A DNA stretch of 35,774 nt from a virus, in the IMG/VR virus record IMGVR_UViG_3300022752_000200, positions 1 through 35,774 of that record. One strand, 5' to 3'. Below, piece after piece: positions 6,242 through 10,790 of the stretch. Position numbers and translations under genes: made by a program. The notes beneath the pieces are model-generated. The model saw nothing but the letters and a program-made list of their open reading frames with translations. It had not been told where the DNA came from and ran no database searches. Position 1 is the stretch's first letter. Each line of letters begins with the position of its first letter.

Positions 6242-6266
6242 CAGAAAGTTTCAACCCAAGGTGAAA
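6223..6266. promoter_or_regulatory. candidate operator: inverted TTTCACYTTR repeats
   Basis: TTTCACTTTAGG (6223-6234) and CCCAAGGTGAAA (6255-6266) are inverted copies that agree at 10 of 12 positions. The left copy covers the rightward -10 and the leftward spacer; the right copy covers the ribosome binding site of the Cro-like gene. A small GAAAGTTTC palindrome (6244-6252) lies between. The likely ligand is the neighbouring Cro-like protein (inference). Confidence 0.5.
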
Positions 6267-6268
6267 AA

Positions 6269-6442
6269 GTGACAACAGAGGAAGCGATCAAGCACTTTGG
6301 CGGGCTGAAAAAGCTCGCCGATGCGCTACAAATCTGGCCGCAGGTGATCTATCGATGGGGCAAGAACCCGCCGATGGCGCGGCAGTACGAGATAGAAGTT
6401 AAGACTGAGGGAAAGTTACGTGCAGACCATGAACAAGATTGA
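6269..6442 (+). CDS. Cro-like transcriptional regulator
   Basis: A 57-aa helix-turn-helix protein resembling the P22 Cro/DicC group: TTEEAIKHFGG at the start, LKKLADALQIWPQVIYRW as the helix-turn-helix (about 13-30), then a short wing-less tail (YEIEVKTEGKLRAD), close to the length of P22 Cro. The start is GTG 6269, preceded by AAGGTG at 5 nt; upstream frame extension crosses the promoter region. It is the first gene rightward of the control region and probably represses both early promoters through the TTTCAC repeats, one of which overlaps its own ribosome binding site. No CI-type repressor gene faces it. Confidence 0.85.
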   Translation: MTTEEAIKHFGGLKKLADALQIWPQVIYRWGKNPPMARQYEIEVKTEGKLRADHEQD

Positions 6443-8294
6443 CGCGGCGCTTTTATATGCAAGTTGGGGCTGGCGCGTGTTGCCAGTGGTGCCCAACGGC
6501 AAGGTTCCTGCAACCGCCCACGGGGTCAACGATGCAACCACAGACCCAGAGCAGATCAAGCGTTGGTGGGGGCAGAACCCAAATCTTAATATCGGCATCG
6601 CTTGCGGCAGTACTAGCGGGATTGTGGTGTTTGACATTGACCCACGCAATGGTGGTGACGCAAGTTGGCAGCAATGGCTATCTGACCACGGCCTAATGCT
6701 AGACGGTGCTATGGCGCTTACCGCAGGTGGCGGGCAGCACTACGTTGCCAAGCACGTTGATGGCATTCGGTCTTGCAAGCTGGCCGATGGGATAGACCTG
6801 CTGGCCGATGGACGGTACTTCATCGTCTACCCATCCACCATCGAAAACAGGGCCTACGAGTGGGAGGCATCCAGCGATCCGTTTGATGGTATCGCCCCAA
6901 CCTATATCCCAACCCATTGGTTGCCGCTCCTTGGGCAGCGCAAGGTAGCGCCCACAACTAACGGCGATCTAATCCAAGGCAACCGTAACGATGGCCTGAC
7001 GAGCCTGGCCGGTGCAATGCGCTCGTTTGGGATGACCGAAGCCGAGATACTGGCCGCGATAAGTGTTGCAAATGAGACACGCTGCGAGATCCCATTGCCA
7101 TCGAGCGAGATCAAGCAGATCGCACGCTCAGTCTCGCGCTATGAGCCAGACGCAGATGTTGCGGCAAGTAGTGCAATCGGCTCAGAGGCCGCAGACGCGC
7201 TTTTATCTGAGCCACCCACATCAGACTACTTCCTTACCCGCGCAACGAGCTTCTTGGGCCAACCAAGCCCCGTGCCGTGGATTGTGAAGGGCTGGCTTCC
7301 TGCATATGCCACAACCATGATGTATGGCGAGTCAGGAGTGGGTAAGACATTCGTTGCGCTGGACATGGCCTGTTGCATAGCTAGCGGAATCGACTGGCAC
7401 GGCATTCGCACTAAGCCTGGCATCGTGGTGTATCTCGCTGGCGAGGGTAACTACGGTATGCGCCAGCGGATTGCAAGCTGGTGTAAGCGTAACAACGTAA
7501 ACAGTCTGGACAACCTGCTAATCAGCAATAAGGCGTTAGACATGGATGCCCCTGGCGCAGCAGCGCAGGTTATCTCGGCAGTCCGGGCGCTGACGCCAGA
7601 ACCAGTTGTACTGGTCAACATCGACACGTTGAATAACCATATGTCAGGGGATGAGAACAGCGCCAAAGACTCACGCGCCATGATCAATGCTTGTAACGTG
7701 GTCTCAATGGCTCTTAGCGCCACGACCATGTTGATACACCACCTTGGGCACAGTAACGAAGCCAAACAGCGTGCGCGGGGTTCTAGCGCGTGGCGCGGGG
7801 CATTGGATGCGAGCATCTTGGTTCACGGAAAAAGCCACGAGATTATCGTTAGCTGCACCAAGCAAAAAGACGCGCCAGAACCAGCAGATTTGTTCGGATG
7901 TTTAAGCCCAGTTGATCTAGGTTGGCAGGACGAGGATGGGATGCCGCTGCCTGGTGCGGTGTTTGAGATGTTCCAAGAGGGCGATCTTCGTATCCCACAA
8001 CCAAAAGAAGACAAGTTGGCCGAGCACAAAACTAACTTGGAACGAGCGTGGTTTGTTGGTGGAGCGGAAGTTGTGGATGAGATGCCCTACGTCAGCCGGG
8101 AGGCGTTTAAGACGTTTCTGCTTGAGCAAGGCATCAAAACCAACTCGGTCGATCAGCACCTTAAGGCATCAGCCAGACCGGGGATGATCATCAGGGATCT
8201 GACCGATGCTGAAATTATAGGCAAGCACGATAAGGGATGGCTGGTTAAAGATACAGTCTTGGGGTCTAAACTCATTATAAAAGTTAGTCCGTAA
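6420..8294 (+). CDS. PrimPol-helicase replication protein
   Basis: A 624-aa replicase. Residues 6-165 are a bifunctional primase-polymerase (PrimPol) domain with the metal-binding DID (72-74), the GGGQHY motif with His107, and GIDLLADGRYFIVYPS (124-139). A PriCT-like helical linker follows (about 189-242). The C-terminal half is a RepA/AAA_25-type hexameric helicase with Walker A GESGVGKT (303-310), Walker B VLVNIDT (397-403) and the LIHHLGH sensor (438-444). It should prime and unwind the phage origin. GTG 6420 has GAGGG at suitable distance; ATG 6429 is an alternative. It overlaps the regulator gene by 23 nt. The CGTAAC array begins at its stop codon. Confidence 0.92.
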   Translation: MQTMNKIDAALLYASWGWRVLPVVPNGKVPATAHGVNDATTDPEQIKRWWGQNPNLNIGIACGSTSGIVVFDIDPRNGGDASWQQWLSDHGLMLDGAMALTAGGGQHYVAKHVDGIRSCKLADGIDLLADGRYFIVYPSTIENRAYEWEASSDPFDGIAPTYIPTHWLPLLGQRKVAPTTNGDLIQGNRNDGLTSLAGAMRSFGMTEAEILAAISVANETRCEIPLPSSEIKQIARSVSRYEPDADVAASSAIGSEAADALLSEPPTSDYFLTRATSFLGQPSPVPWIVKGWLPAYATTMMYGESGVGKTFVALDMACCIASGIDWHGIRTKPGIVVYLAGEGNYGMRQRIASWCKRNNVNSLDNLLISNKALDMDAPGAAAQVISAVRALTPEPVVLVNIDTLNNHMSGDENSAKDSRAMINACNVVSMALSATTMLIHHLGHSNEAKQRARGSSAWRGALDASILVHGKSHEIIVSCTKQKDAPEPADLFGCLSPVDLGWQDEDGMPLPGAVFEMFQEGDLRIPQPKEDKLAEHKTNLERAWFVGGAEVVDEMPYVSREAFKTFLLEQGIKTNSVDQHLKASARPGMIIRDLTDAEIIGKHDKGWLVKDTVLGSKLIIKVSP

Positions 8295-8421
8295 CAACCG
8301 TAACAAGCCGTAACATGGCGTAACATTGTTACGGCGGCAAAGGCGAGTTTACCGTAACGTAACGTAACACACCCTTTAGGGTGTTACGGTGTTACGGTAC
8401 GATGCGGAGCGTTACGTTACG
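8290..8421. repeat. CGTAAC/GTTACG array, candidate replication origin
   Basis: Twelve exact copies of the hexamer occur in 132 bp. Direct copies start at 8290, 8299, 8309 and 8319 (9-10 bp apart, one helical turn), then 8353, 8358 and 8363 (overlapping by one base); inverted copies start at 8328, 8383, 8391, 8411 and 8416. ACACCCT-TT-AGGGTGT in the middle (8369-8384) can form a hairpin. The array fills the gap between the PrimPol and methyltransferase genes and looks like iterons. The origin role is inference. Confidence 0.7.
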
Positions 8422-8453: not shown

Positions 8454-9653
8454 ATGACCGATCCAGCAGAAAAAATTGAAAAATGGGCGATTGAAAAACT
8501 GATCCCCTACGCGAGAAATGCCAGGACGCACTCGGATGAGCAGGTAGGGCAGATTGCTGCCAGCATCAAAGAGTGGGGTTGGACTACCCCGGTGTTGGTG
8601 GATGAGGATGGAGGGATCATCGCTGGCCACGGCAGGACGATGGCAGCGAAGCGTCTAGGGATGCGTGAAGTCCCCGTGATGGTGGCTCGAGGATGGAGCG
8701 ATGCGAAGAAGCGAGCCTACGTTTTGGCCGATAACAAACTGGCTCTCAACGCGGGTTGGGATGACTCAATGCTGGCCCTTGAACTCAAAGAGTTGGGCGA
8801 GACTGGGTTTGACCTAGATTTGACTGGTTTTTCCCTTGATGAGATCAATGCGCTCACGCCTTTGGAGGTTGAACCTGGGTTAACGGATGAGGATGCCGTT
8901 CCAGAGGCCCCAGAAGAGCCTACAACGCGATTGGGCGACGTTTGGATACTGGGACAGCACCGACTAATGTGCGGCGATTCTACGTTGATTGACGCGGTTG
9001 AGAAGCTGATGGATGGGCAAAAGGCTGAGATGGTGTTTACGGACCCGCCCTATAATATTGATTACCAAGGCGTGAAAGATCGTCGGGAAAAAATCAAAAA
9101 CGACAAGATGTCTGATCCCGATTTCTTGGATTTCTTGATTCAAAGCTTGATGAGGTGCGAAGTTATGTACGTTTGCTGCTCATGGCAGTACGCCCACCTT
9201 TTCAAGCAAGCGATGTATGAAATCGGGCATCCAGCCAAGGCGATGATCGTTTGGGACAAAATAAATCCAGCCCAACATCTGGATCTCTACTTTAAGCAAC
9301 ACGAAATAATCTTTTATCACGGCCCGTTTGGCGGCAACAAAACAGTTCGTGGAGACGTTTGGAAAATCAAACGACAACAAAACACGGTCCATCCAACGAT
9401 GAAGCCGGTCGAACTGATCGAGATGGCTTTGTCAGACCATCCTGGCATGAAGATCGTTTATGACGCTTTCGGAGGCTCAGGCTCTACGCTGATAGCCTGC
9501 GAAAAAACGGCACGGCAATGCAGGATGATGGAGCTTGATCCGAAGTATTGCGATGTCATAATCAAACGATGGGAGGAATACACTGGAAAAAACGCAATCA
9601 ACTCAATTTGTGGTAGGGAATTCAAGACGTTACAGAAGCAAGTTCATGAATAA
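8454..9653 (+). CDS. ParB-domain / DNA N6- or N4-methyltransferase fusion
   Basis: A 399-aa fusion common in phages. Residues 12-95 are a ParB/Sulfiredoxin-like nuclease domain with AGHGR (57-61). Residues 160-390 are a beta-class DNA methyltransferase: catalytic DPPY (197-200) comes first, HPTMKPVEL (313-321) and the AdoMet-binding FGGSGST (339-345) last. DPPY favours adenine modification. No restriction enzyme gene is nearby, so it is an orphan methylase that may protect phage DNA or mark origin or packaging sites. A GGGGA sequence and GAAAG precede the ATG. It sits between two CGTAAC clusters. The ParB half may act as CTP/ATP-using or nicking module; that is unknown for this group. Confidence 0.92.
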   Translation: MTDPAEKIEKWAIEKLIPYARNARTHSDEQVGQIAASIKEWGWTTPVLVDEDGGIIAGHGRTMAAKRLGMREVPVMVARGWSDAKKRAYVLADNKLALNAGWDDSMLALELKELGETGFDLDLTGFSLDEINALTPLEVEPGLTDEDAVPEAPEEPTTRLGDVWILGQHRLMCGDSTLIDAVEKLMDGQKAEMVFTDPPYNIDYQGVKDRREKIKNDKMSDPDFLDFLIQSLMRCEVMYVCCSWQYAHLFKQAMYEIGHPAKAMIVWDKINPAQHLDLYFKQHEIIFYHGPFGGNKTVRGDVWKIKRQQNTVHPTMKPVELIEMALSDHPGMKIVYDAFGGSGSTLIACEKTARQCRMMELDPKYCDVIIKRWEEYTGKNAINSICGREFKTLQKQVHE

Positions 9654-10191
9654 CCATCAACAAGAAATTGAAGAGTCAAGAGGGCGTGGGCGCCCCCGCT
9701 TTGAACCAACGGACGAAGAGCGCAAGCAAGTCGAGGCAATGGCTGGTTATGGCGTTGCTGAAGCGCACATCGCATCGTTGATTCGCGGCGGCATTGGAGT
9801 CTCGACTTTGCGTGAGCGGTTCAAGGAAAACCTTGAGCAAGGCCGCGCTAAAGCGCACGCCGGGATCGGCAAGACGCTGTTCCAGAAGGCGATGGCCGGC
9901 GACGTGGCGAGCTTGATCTGGTGGACCAAGACACAAATGCGCTGGACCGAAGCACCGCGCCAGATCGAAGTGAGCGGCAACATCTCCATCACTGACGCGC
10001 TCGCGCAGGCGCAAGCACGCTTGATCGAGGCTGAGATCATTGAGATGGACGCGCCGTTACTGACCGTAACAGAGCCTGTTACGCTTGTTACGGACGCCGT
10101 TACGCCTGTTACGGTCGAGTACGTTGGGGGTAACAATGGGGGTAACATCTCCGACCGCGGCAAAGAAAATGCAATGAAATCAACGGGTTAG
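9646..10191 (+). CDS. terminase small subunit
   Basis: The 181-aa product starts at ATG 9646, which overlaps the methylase stop; an upstream GTG (9610) has no better binding site. The N-terminal half resembles phage small terminases: basic GRGRPRF, an HTH (EERKQVEAMAGYGVAEAHIASLI, about 25-48), then LFQKAMAGDVASLIWWTKTQMRW. The subunit recognises the packaging site and feeds DNA to the large subunit, and in P22 the pac site lies inside this gene. The C-terminal 45 residues (TVTEPVTLVTDAVTPVTVEYV) are low complexity and arise from a GTTACG-rich DNA stretch, which looks as if a DNA motif has been written into the reading frame. Confidence 0.82.
   Translation: MNNHQQEIEESRGRGRPRFEPTDEERKQVEAMAGYGVAEAHIASLIRGGIGVSTLRERFKENLEQGRAKAHAGIGKTLFQKAMAGDVASLIWWTKTQMRWTEAPRQIEVSGNISITDALAQAQARLIEAEIIEMDAPLLTVTEPVTLVTDAVTPVTVEYVGGNNGGNISDRGKENAMKSTG
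10056..10146. repeat. second CGTAAC/GTTACG cluster, inside the terminase small-subunit gene
   Basis: Exact hexamers begin at 10065, 10078, 10087, 10099 and 10108, with near matches at 10056 (GTTACT), 10129 and 10141 (GGTAAC). It is the same motif as at 8290-8421, mostly in the opposite orientation, with 9- and 12-bp steps that keep the reading frame. A pac or second initiation site is possible. Confidence 0.6.
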
Positions 10192-10271
10192 CGCAATGAT
10201 GTGATTCCCCCTACGGCTACCGCATCGGGTCCGGCAGGGCCGACCGAGGGTTTTCCCGTAGGCCCGAGGGG
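10192..10271. other. intergenic gap between small terminase and XF1762 genes (left part)
   Basis: No reading frame with a ribosome binding site is visible on either strand here. The sequence is GC-rich with repeated CCG/GGC steps (CATCGGGTCCGGCAGGGCCG) and merges into the hairpin at 10272-10338. The position next to the small terminase gene makes it, together with the upstream CGTAAC cluster, the best place to look for a packaging start site. Confidence 0.4.
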
Positions 10272-10338
10272 GCGGGGGAGGGCCGGCGGCCGACCGGTCA
10301 CGGTGACGGTGGCCCCGCAAGAATTTTTTTTATTTTTT
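10272..10338 (+). terminator. GC-rich hairpin followed by T-tracts (leaky terminator or pac-region structure)
   Basis: The gap 10192-10343 has no gene. Its right half is very GC-rich: GCGGGG (10272-10277) can pair with CCCCGC (10313-10318), with smaller dyads such as GTCAC-G-GTGAC inside, followed by T8-A-T6 (10324-10338). The T-tract ends 5 nt before the next ATG, which leaves no room for a new promoter, so full termination here is doubtful. Confidence 0.45.
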
Positions 10339-10343
10339 GAAAA

Positions 10344-10790
10344 ATGCCCTTATTGATCACGCCGATCTCGCTGGAAGAGGCAAACGCTTTTGTGGAGGTT
10401 CACCATCGGCATCACAATCCGGTGGTCGGGCATAAGTTTTCAATTGCGGTGAGCGATGGCGATAAGGTGGTTGGTGTGGCGATTGTTGGTAGGCCGGTAT
10501 CGAGACATCTGGATAACGGATGGGTGCTTGAGGTAAACCGTTGCTGTACGGATGGAACCAAGAACGCTTGTTCAATGCTGTACGGTGCTGCCTGGAGGGC
10601 GGCGAAGGCGTTGGGGTACAGAAGGTTGATTACCTACACGCTGCCGGCAGAGGGTGGCGCTAGTCTGAAGGCGTCGGGATGGAACTTAGTAGGCGAGCGT
10701 GGTGGGGGCAACTGGAACGTCAAGAGCAGACCAAGGATTGATACTGACGAACTTCTGCGTGGGCAGAAGTCGCTCTGGGAAGCGGTTTAA
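10344..10790 (+). CDS. XF1762 family protein (GNAT-like)
   Basis: A 148-aa protein of the XF1762 family, recognised from the opening PLLITPISLEEANAFVE with HHRHHNP (20-26), VGVAIVGRPVSRHLD, the NACSMLYGAAWRAAKALGY segment (about 74-92) and the GGGNWNVKSRPR end. The layout (beta, helix, NACSMLYG loop) resembles GNAT acetyltransferases, but the substrate is unknown. In phages it usually lies beside terminase genes, as here. The ATG follows a T-tract and has only GAAAA before it, no real Shine-Dalgarno, so expression may be low or dependent on A/U-rich initiation. Family call firm, biochemical role inferred. Confidence 0.85.
   Translation: MPLLITPISLEEANAFVEVHHRHHNPVVGHKFSIAVSDGDKVVGVAIVGRPVSRHLDNGWVLEVNRCCTDGTKNACSMLYGAAWRAAKALGYRRLITYTLPAEGGASLKASGWNLVGERGGGNWNVKSRPRIDTDELLRGQKSLWEAV

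Follow-up and report, generated by a model that had tools for sequence, protein, structure and literature searches.

A putative replication origin at the end of a phage PrimPol-helicase gene and a candidate code by which the helicase may read it

A dense array of one short repeat at the very end of a phage gene raises two questions: what the array does and which protein reads it. The array considered here lies in virus record IMGVR_UViG_3300022752_000200, the whole analyzed stretch of which (35,774 bases) is referred to below as the window, and it begins where a gene encoding a PrimPol-helicase ends. The first-pass annotation had read it as an iteron-type origin and had left the initiator unnamed. 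The comparative evidence, namely, the constant place of the array among relatives and the covariation of the repeat with the helicase, supports the origin reading, and the likely binder can now be named: the PrimPol-helicase encoded immediately upstream, through its predicted C-terminal winged-helix domain. We think it probable that the array is the replication origin, that this protein is its own iteron-binding initiator through helix 574-580, and that its PrimPol part primes at a hairpin within the array. Origin activity as such we infer from position, architecture, and precedents.

The main array (8290..8421) contains 12 exact copies of CGTAAC/GTTACG in both orientations, all of which were confirmed by position. 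Hexamers on the plus strand start at 8290, 8299, 8309, 8319, 8353, 8358, and 8363, and those on the minus strand start at 8328, 8383, 8391, 8411, and 8416. The array opens with four direct iterons (8290..8324, plus strand) that are 9, 10, and 10 bp apart, the first of which includes the PrimPol stop codon (TAA at 8292-8294). An inverted iteron (8328..8333, minus strand) forms a small inverted repeat together with the fourth direct copy and is followed by three tandem iterons with 1-base overlaps (8353..8368, plus strand). Four inverted iterons (8383..8421, minus strand), two of which are absent in many relatives, lie on the right side of the hairpin. The spacing, the tandem triplet, and the position of the stop codon are as the first-pass annotation had described them, although it had overlooked the hairpin (8369-8384), a cluster of five further copies at 10065-10113, and two copies of GGTAAC just beyond that cluster. 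A gene encoding a ParB-N6/N4 methyltransferase fusion (8454-9653) follows the array in the window.

The hexamer is strongly overrepresented, with 37 copies of CGTAAC/GTTACG in the window compared to 14.5 ± 3.6 in dinucleotide shuffles, none of 100 of which reached 37. Outside both clusters its density is 0.56 per kb, and the Poisson probability of finding 12 copies in 132 bp is about 5e-23. Cumulative GC skew, which had been put forward as a check, gives no support for an origin exactly at the array. The minimum falls at 6257, where leftward genes give way to rightward genes next to a Cro-like regulator; because the minimum follows gene direction, GC skew was set aside as evidence on the origin.

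The gene that ends in the array (6420..8294, plus strand) encodes a PrimPol-helicase of 624 amino acids, characterized through Pfam matches, likeness to RSF1010 RepA in sequence and fold, and AF2 models. It consists of a Prim-Pol domain (residues 10 to 154), a PriCT-1 domain (180 to 244), an AAA_25/RepA-type helicase (270 to 446), and a predicted C-terminal winged helix (about 532 to 622); the Pfam E values are 4e-32 for Prim-Pol (PF09250), 5e-15 for PF08708, and 3e-37 for AAA_25. The AAA_25 part matches RSF1010 RepA in a profile search of PDB sequences (1g8y; E, 7e-8), and its fold matches 1nlf and 1olo with a TM (target) of about 0.7. On these matches, the helicase core is assigned as a RecA-type hexameric helicase related to RSF1010 RepA. 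The coding region for the predicted iteron-binding domain (8013..8285, plus strand) specifies residues 532 to 622. Modeled alone by AF2 with a mean pLDDT of 81, this domain has helices at 532 to 546, 560 to 569, 574 to 580, and 590 to 596, a two-stranded beta wing at 600 to 609, and a final helix, an order of elements that is that of a winged helix. Foldseek returned weak matches of this model to CRP/FNR winged helices (best E, 0.09), and searching PDB sequences with this domain yielded no relative.

In 50 IMG/VR loci whose PrimPol is 87 to 95% identical to that of the window, the array is present wherever the contig extends far enough, with 8 to 12 copies of a nearly invariant hexamer separated by variable spacers. 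It persists even in several close relatives in which a gene cassette of about 0.8 to 0.9 kb lies between PrimPol and the array. In loci with the cassette (L016, L020, L029, L037, and L038), the last PrimPol codons are altered, and the inserted gene appears by eye to be PAPS-reductase-like. Farther away, the phage record MW202867, whose PrimPol is 56.5% identical, has an array of a different hexamer, GGGACA, in the equal place and order. The hexamer is GGTTCA in Alteromonas phage XX1924, GGTACA in Idiomarinaceae phage 1N2-2, and GGGACA in Salicola phage CGphi29. The proteins of these three phages match the window protein only from about residue 260 onward, which indicates that the array goes with the helicase and its tail and not with Prim-Pol. 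It accompanies the helicase and C-terminal domain whether the N terminus is PrimPol or another module.

The check proposed in the first-pass annotation, whether similar clusters are scattered at random over related genomes, gave a result that favors its reading. In 94 of 125 viral and bacterial loci, hexamer repetition is higher in the 500 bp located at the stop of the helicase gene than in any other block of that locus. A single hexamer occurs six or more times at the helicase stop in 111 of 133 nonredundant relatives (83%) versus 22 of 1,673 other blocks (1.3%), counted in blocks of 330 bp in a set of AAA_25 helicase-plus-tail relatives that pools all scans and holds tails less than 93% identical. 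The hexamers of the family include CGTAAC, GGTAAC, GGGACA, GGTACA, GGGTCA, and CGTACC, and the order of elements is shared: first direct repeats and one inverted copy, then tandem repeats, the hairpin (loop TTTA or TATA), and finally inverted repeats. Among the loci without an array at the stop, it is displaced downstream in L120, L113, and L016. A clade whose tails carry RTIENDLS (L109, L122, L217, and similar loci) has the family hairpin and a short, degenerate array of three to five CCCCTA-like copies; its iteron is perhaps degenerate or longer. Two further arrangements were observed. L097 has a very long AGGGTA array (1911-2531), with 11 copies near the stop and 19 within 2288-2531, in one orientation where examined, and L322 (2235-2298), L338, and L339 have four GGTAAC copies inside the helicase coding region besides the array after the stop.

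The hairpin, ACACCC-TTTA-GGGTGT (8369..8384), lies between the tandem and inverted copies, and its stem and loop type are conserved across the family. Among close relatives both arms vary together with pairing kept (ACCCTTTAGGGT, ACTCTTTAGAGT, TCCTATAGGA, and a longer form). A C-G-closed hairpin with a TTTA or TATA loop and a stem of at least 6 bp is present in 34 of 103 loci that were not chosen for array presence, the set in which the hairpin was first noticed, versus 4 of 2,130 other blocks. With a T[TA]TA loop and a stem of at least 5 bp, it is present in 60 of 116 nonredundant array loci versus 1 of 1,750 other blocks, and iterons flank it on both sides in 57 of those 60. As single-stranded DNA, the window array folds better than shuffled sequences (z, -3.2). 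Because transcription terminators are usually found as hairpins just past a stop codon, the hairpin might simply be a terminator and the repeats a feature of the mRNA. We consider this reading to have next to no probability, given that the hairpin in the window is not followed by a T-run and that the repeats occur in both orientations, differ between families, and change along with a helix predicted to bind DNA.

Another element that does not depend on the hexamer is a DnaA box (TTATNCACA), which is found in 27 of 116 array regions versus 21 of 1,623 other blocks (1.3%), although the window has no TTATNCACA box near its array. Between the array halves of the window lies a GGCAAAGGC box (8336..8344, plus strand), and a similar box is found in part of the family. 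Within 1 mismatch it occurs in 14 of 57 loci versus 7.7% of other blocks, with none on the minus strand; this enrichment is modest, as is that of GATGCGG boxes, and neither of the two boxes is claimed as a general element.

The helicase could bind the array as an operator that times or represses the downstream genes or its own operon, with replication starting elsewhere. The array does separate an early gene from the one that follows, and the downstream genes vary among relatives, as an insulated control site would permit. However, the array stands after and not before the gene of its binder, its position and architecture are kept while the downstream genes are replaced, and the conserved hairpin and the enrichment of DnaA boxes do not favor an operator. 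We therefore regard this explanation as unlikely and retain the reading of the array as an origin.

From 52 aligned proteins, before further loci were inspected, a rule was noted in which D or E at residue 578 is paired with C at base 1, and K or R with G. For residue 579, Q or N is paired with T at base 3, and the residue T with the base G. In held-out loci, the assignments of D/E to C and of K/R to G were right in 41 of 48 cases, and that of Q579 to T at base 3 was right in 14 of 14. The assignment of N579 to T at base 3 was right in just 2 of 14 held-out loci, and the N part of the code was therefore withdrawn.

An unbiased scan that made no use of this rule compared locus pairs with helicase domains 60 to 97% identical and scored the protein columns that differ more often when a motif base differs. 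It relied on similarity-matched pair contrasts with an occupancy filter, with motif frames aligned without protein information; plain mutual information over all columns was dropped in favor of these contrasts because gappy, high-entropy columns dominated it. Of 350 columns, the top-ranked ones are 578 (base 1), 579 (base 3), 577 (base 4), and 576 (base 5). None of 200 permutations, which ignore relatedness, reached any of the four top column scores. The residues concerned in the window (S576, V577, D578, and Q579; codons at 8145..8156, plus strand), from which specificity would derive, are all in or at the predicted helix 574-580. Tabulated by the pair of residues at 578 and 579, D-Q goes with CGTAAC in 14 of 16 cases, K-Q with GGTAAC in 13 of 15, K-T with GGGACA in 13 of 14, and R-N with GGGTCA in 11 of 12, and the D-Q pair is common to the distant CGTAAC families L069, L100, and L139.

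Natural pairs of loci point in the same direction. The helicases of L245 and L253 differ at four positions and their tails (521 to 624) at five, one of these being Q579V, and their arrays differ throughout, from GGTAAC to GGGAAC/CGGAAC. L114 and L140 have 2 helicase differences and 46 tail differences, including D578K; GGTAAC and CGTACC are exchanged between them, while the hairpin and the sequence that follows it are identical. Residue 579 is Q or T in L098 and L101, with CGTAC and CGGGAC, respectively. Not in line with a code of two residues, base 3 changes between L232 and L236 while residues 578 and 579 do not, which indicates that residue 586, which changes in two such pairs, or other positions contribute. 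On a tree of helicase domains, in which many loci are related, the supported independent switches are few and all in the direction expected from the code, and a sign test is not significant (5:0 for base 3, P = 0.0625; about 2.4:0 for base 1). The strongest arguments for the code are the rank of these columns against 346 others with equal history and the natural pairs. We strongly infer that the tail binds the hexamers.

The binder might instead be the Cro-like regulator, the ParB-methyltransferase, or the small terminase, all of which are encoded close by in the window, the last in a gene that holds the second cluster. The ParB-methyltransferase was discarded, since the majority of close relatives have the array but not this gene downstream of it, and among the 350 columns, all of them in the helicase protein, the hexamer tracks four adjacent residues of the helicase tail best. 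It is thus very unlikely that one of these three proteins, rather than the helicase tail, reads the repeat.

The second cluster (10065..10113) comprises five copies within the probable small terminase gene (9610..10191, plus strand; PHROG 309; E, 7e-10), with two GGTAAC copies directly after it (region 10065-10150). It is invariant in relatives even though Val and Thr codons are 4-fold degenerate. Among the 138 Val-Thr pairs at the end of the small terminase in 32 different sequences from the window's clade, 106 are encoded by GTTACG and 32 by GTAACN, counts that are upper bounds because the loci were picked for carrying the cluster. Codon usage predicts 12% GTTACG for Val-Thr, and neighboring codons vary freely. 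The simplest reading of this pattern would be selection on the DNA itself. Among the loci examined, only the window's clade and L091 have a second cluster, and the MW202867 terminase gene lacks one. In L091, which is of the GGGACA type, it consists of four copies of that locus's own hexamer and lies about 0.6 kb past the stop, on its downstream side. A gene for a Mom-like DNA modification protein (10344-10790; PF25680 and PHROG 1384) directly follows the small terminase gene in the window, and GC-rich inverted repeats followed by a T-rich run, possibly a terminator, lie between the two (10230-10335).

The small-terminase gene of P22-type phages contains pac. Portal matches of the P22 type are present in the window alongside the cluster in its small-terminase gene, so that the clusters might be packaging (pac) or packaging-control sites instead of an origin. 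This explanation is nevertheless given very low probability: the second cluster is confined to the loci just named and is missing from the MW202867 terminase gene, and the main array occurs across families independently of a nearby terminase gene. With the main array taken as the origin, a further comparison is with phage P4, whose alpha protein is a primase-helicase initiator with two separated iteron sets (ori and crr). The main array and second cluster of the window may be compared with these two sets, although the type of helicase and the iteron sequence differ. By analogy, the second cluster could be a copy-control binding site like P4 crr, or it could be a link to packaging.

In the mechanism that we propose, helix 574-580 would read the hexamer, with D578 specifying base 1 (C), Q579 specifying base 3 (T), and residues 576 and 577 specifying bases 5 and 4. 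Copies bound on both sides would assemble the hexameric helicase ring at the hairpin, as may be supposed from knowledge of the RepA family, and the DNA would open there. The attached PrimPol domain would then lay the first primers at the hairpin, and in relatives without a Prim-Pol domain, priming would proceed by other means. Host DnaA may assist in part of the family, to judge from the enrichment of its box, which accompanies the array in about one relative in four. As neighbors, binder and sites can be exchanged or mutated jointly, and each phage lineage may in this way have come to hold a private origin code.

Parts of this arrangement have precedents, those for a helicase that reads iterons beyond its own gene being experimental. 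SaPI Rep, of the staphylococcal pathogenicity islands, is an initiator helicase with a C-terminal domain that recognizes short iterons lying immediately past the end of the gene encoding it (PMC7581432), and in SCCmec Cch2 the isolated C-terminal domain binds AAGTG iterons downstream of cch2 (PMC7581432). The window helicase resembles SaPI Rep in having iterons directly downstream of its own gene but differs in being a RepA/AAA_25 helicase with the RecA fold that is fused to an AEP PrimPol. The arrays of its family differ as well, with a conserved TTTA-loop hairpin, copies in both orientations, and a readable correspondence between residues and bases. Cch2 is of the D5/AAA+ type with three 5-nt iterons, whereas the window family is of the RecA fold with typically 6 to 14 hexamers. 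On its sequence, then, the window helicase appears to work like SaPI Rep and Cch2 and is not a member of the D5/AAA+ protein family of Cch2. The Sulfolobus plasmid pRN1 has an essential origin stem-loop downstream of the PrimPol gene encoding ORF904 (PMC4234260). ORF904 likewise combines PrimPol, helicase, and winged helix with an origin element 3' of the gene, but it has an SF3 helicase, a stem-loop of about 100 nt, and no described iteron code, whereas the window has AAA_25 and not SF3. In RSF1010, a separate RepC reads the iterons, and the primase RepB' is also separate (PMC4234260). The likeness there is in a RepA-family hexameric helicase and in iterons and ssi hairpins at the origin, and the difference is that iteron reading and priming appear to be fused to the helicase in the window.

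In open-access full text, we found no description of iteron origins for RepA/AAA_25 phage helicases or of a residue-to-base code. A mobile-element helicase that reads downstream iterons is thus known, and what is apparently new is the RepA/AAA_25 phage version and its residue-base code. With somewhat more confidence than doubt, we favor the broader view that this is a widespread, apparently undescribed class of phage and prophage origin whose iterons are read by a RecA-fold helicase encoded beside them, through a short, decodable code at residues 576 to 579. Private origin specificities would then arise as the helix and all of the repeats change in concert and the hairpin and flanks are kept, and in the window's clade the second sites within the small-terminase gene may tie replication to packaging or to the control of copy number. 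If this is true, the origin would be readable from sequence in many uncultured phages and prophages with a RepA-type helicase, and the iteron would be partly predictable from two residues. The family would also offer a natural system in which to study how an initiator can be altered jointly with a dozen DNA sites and remain functional, and it raises the question of why phages keep private origin codes, for which incompatibility and defense against satellites or related phages are candidate reasons.
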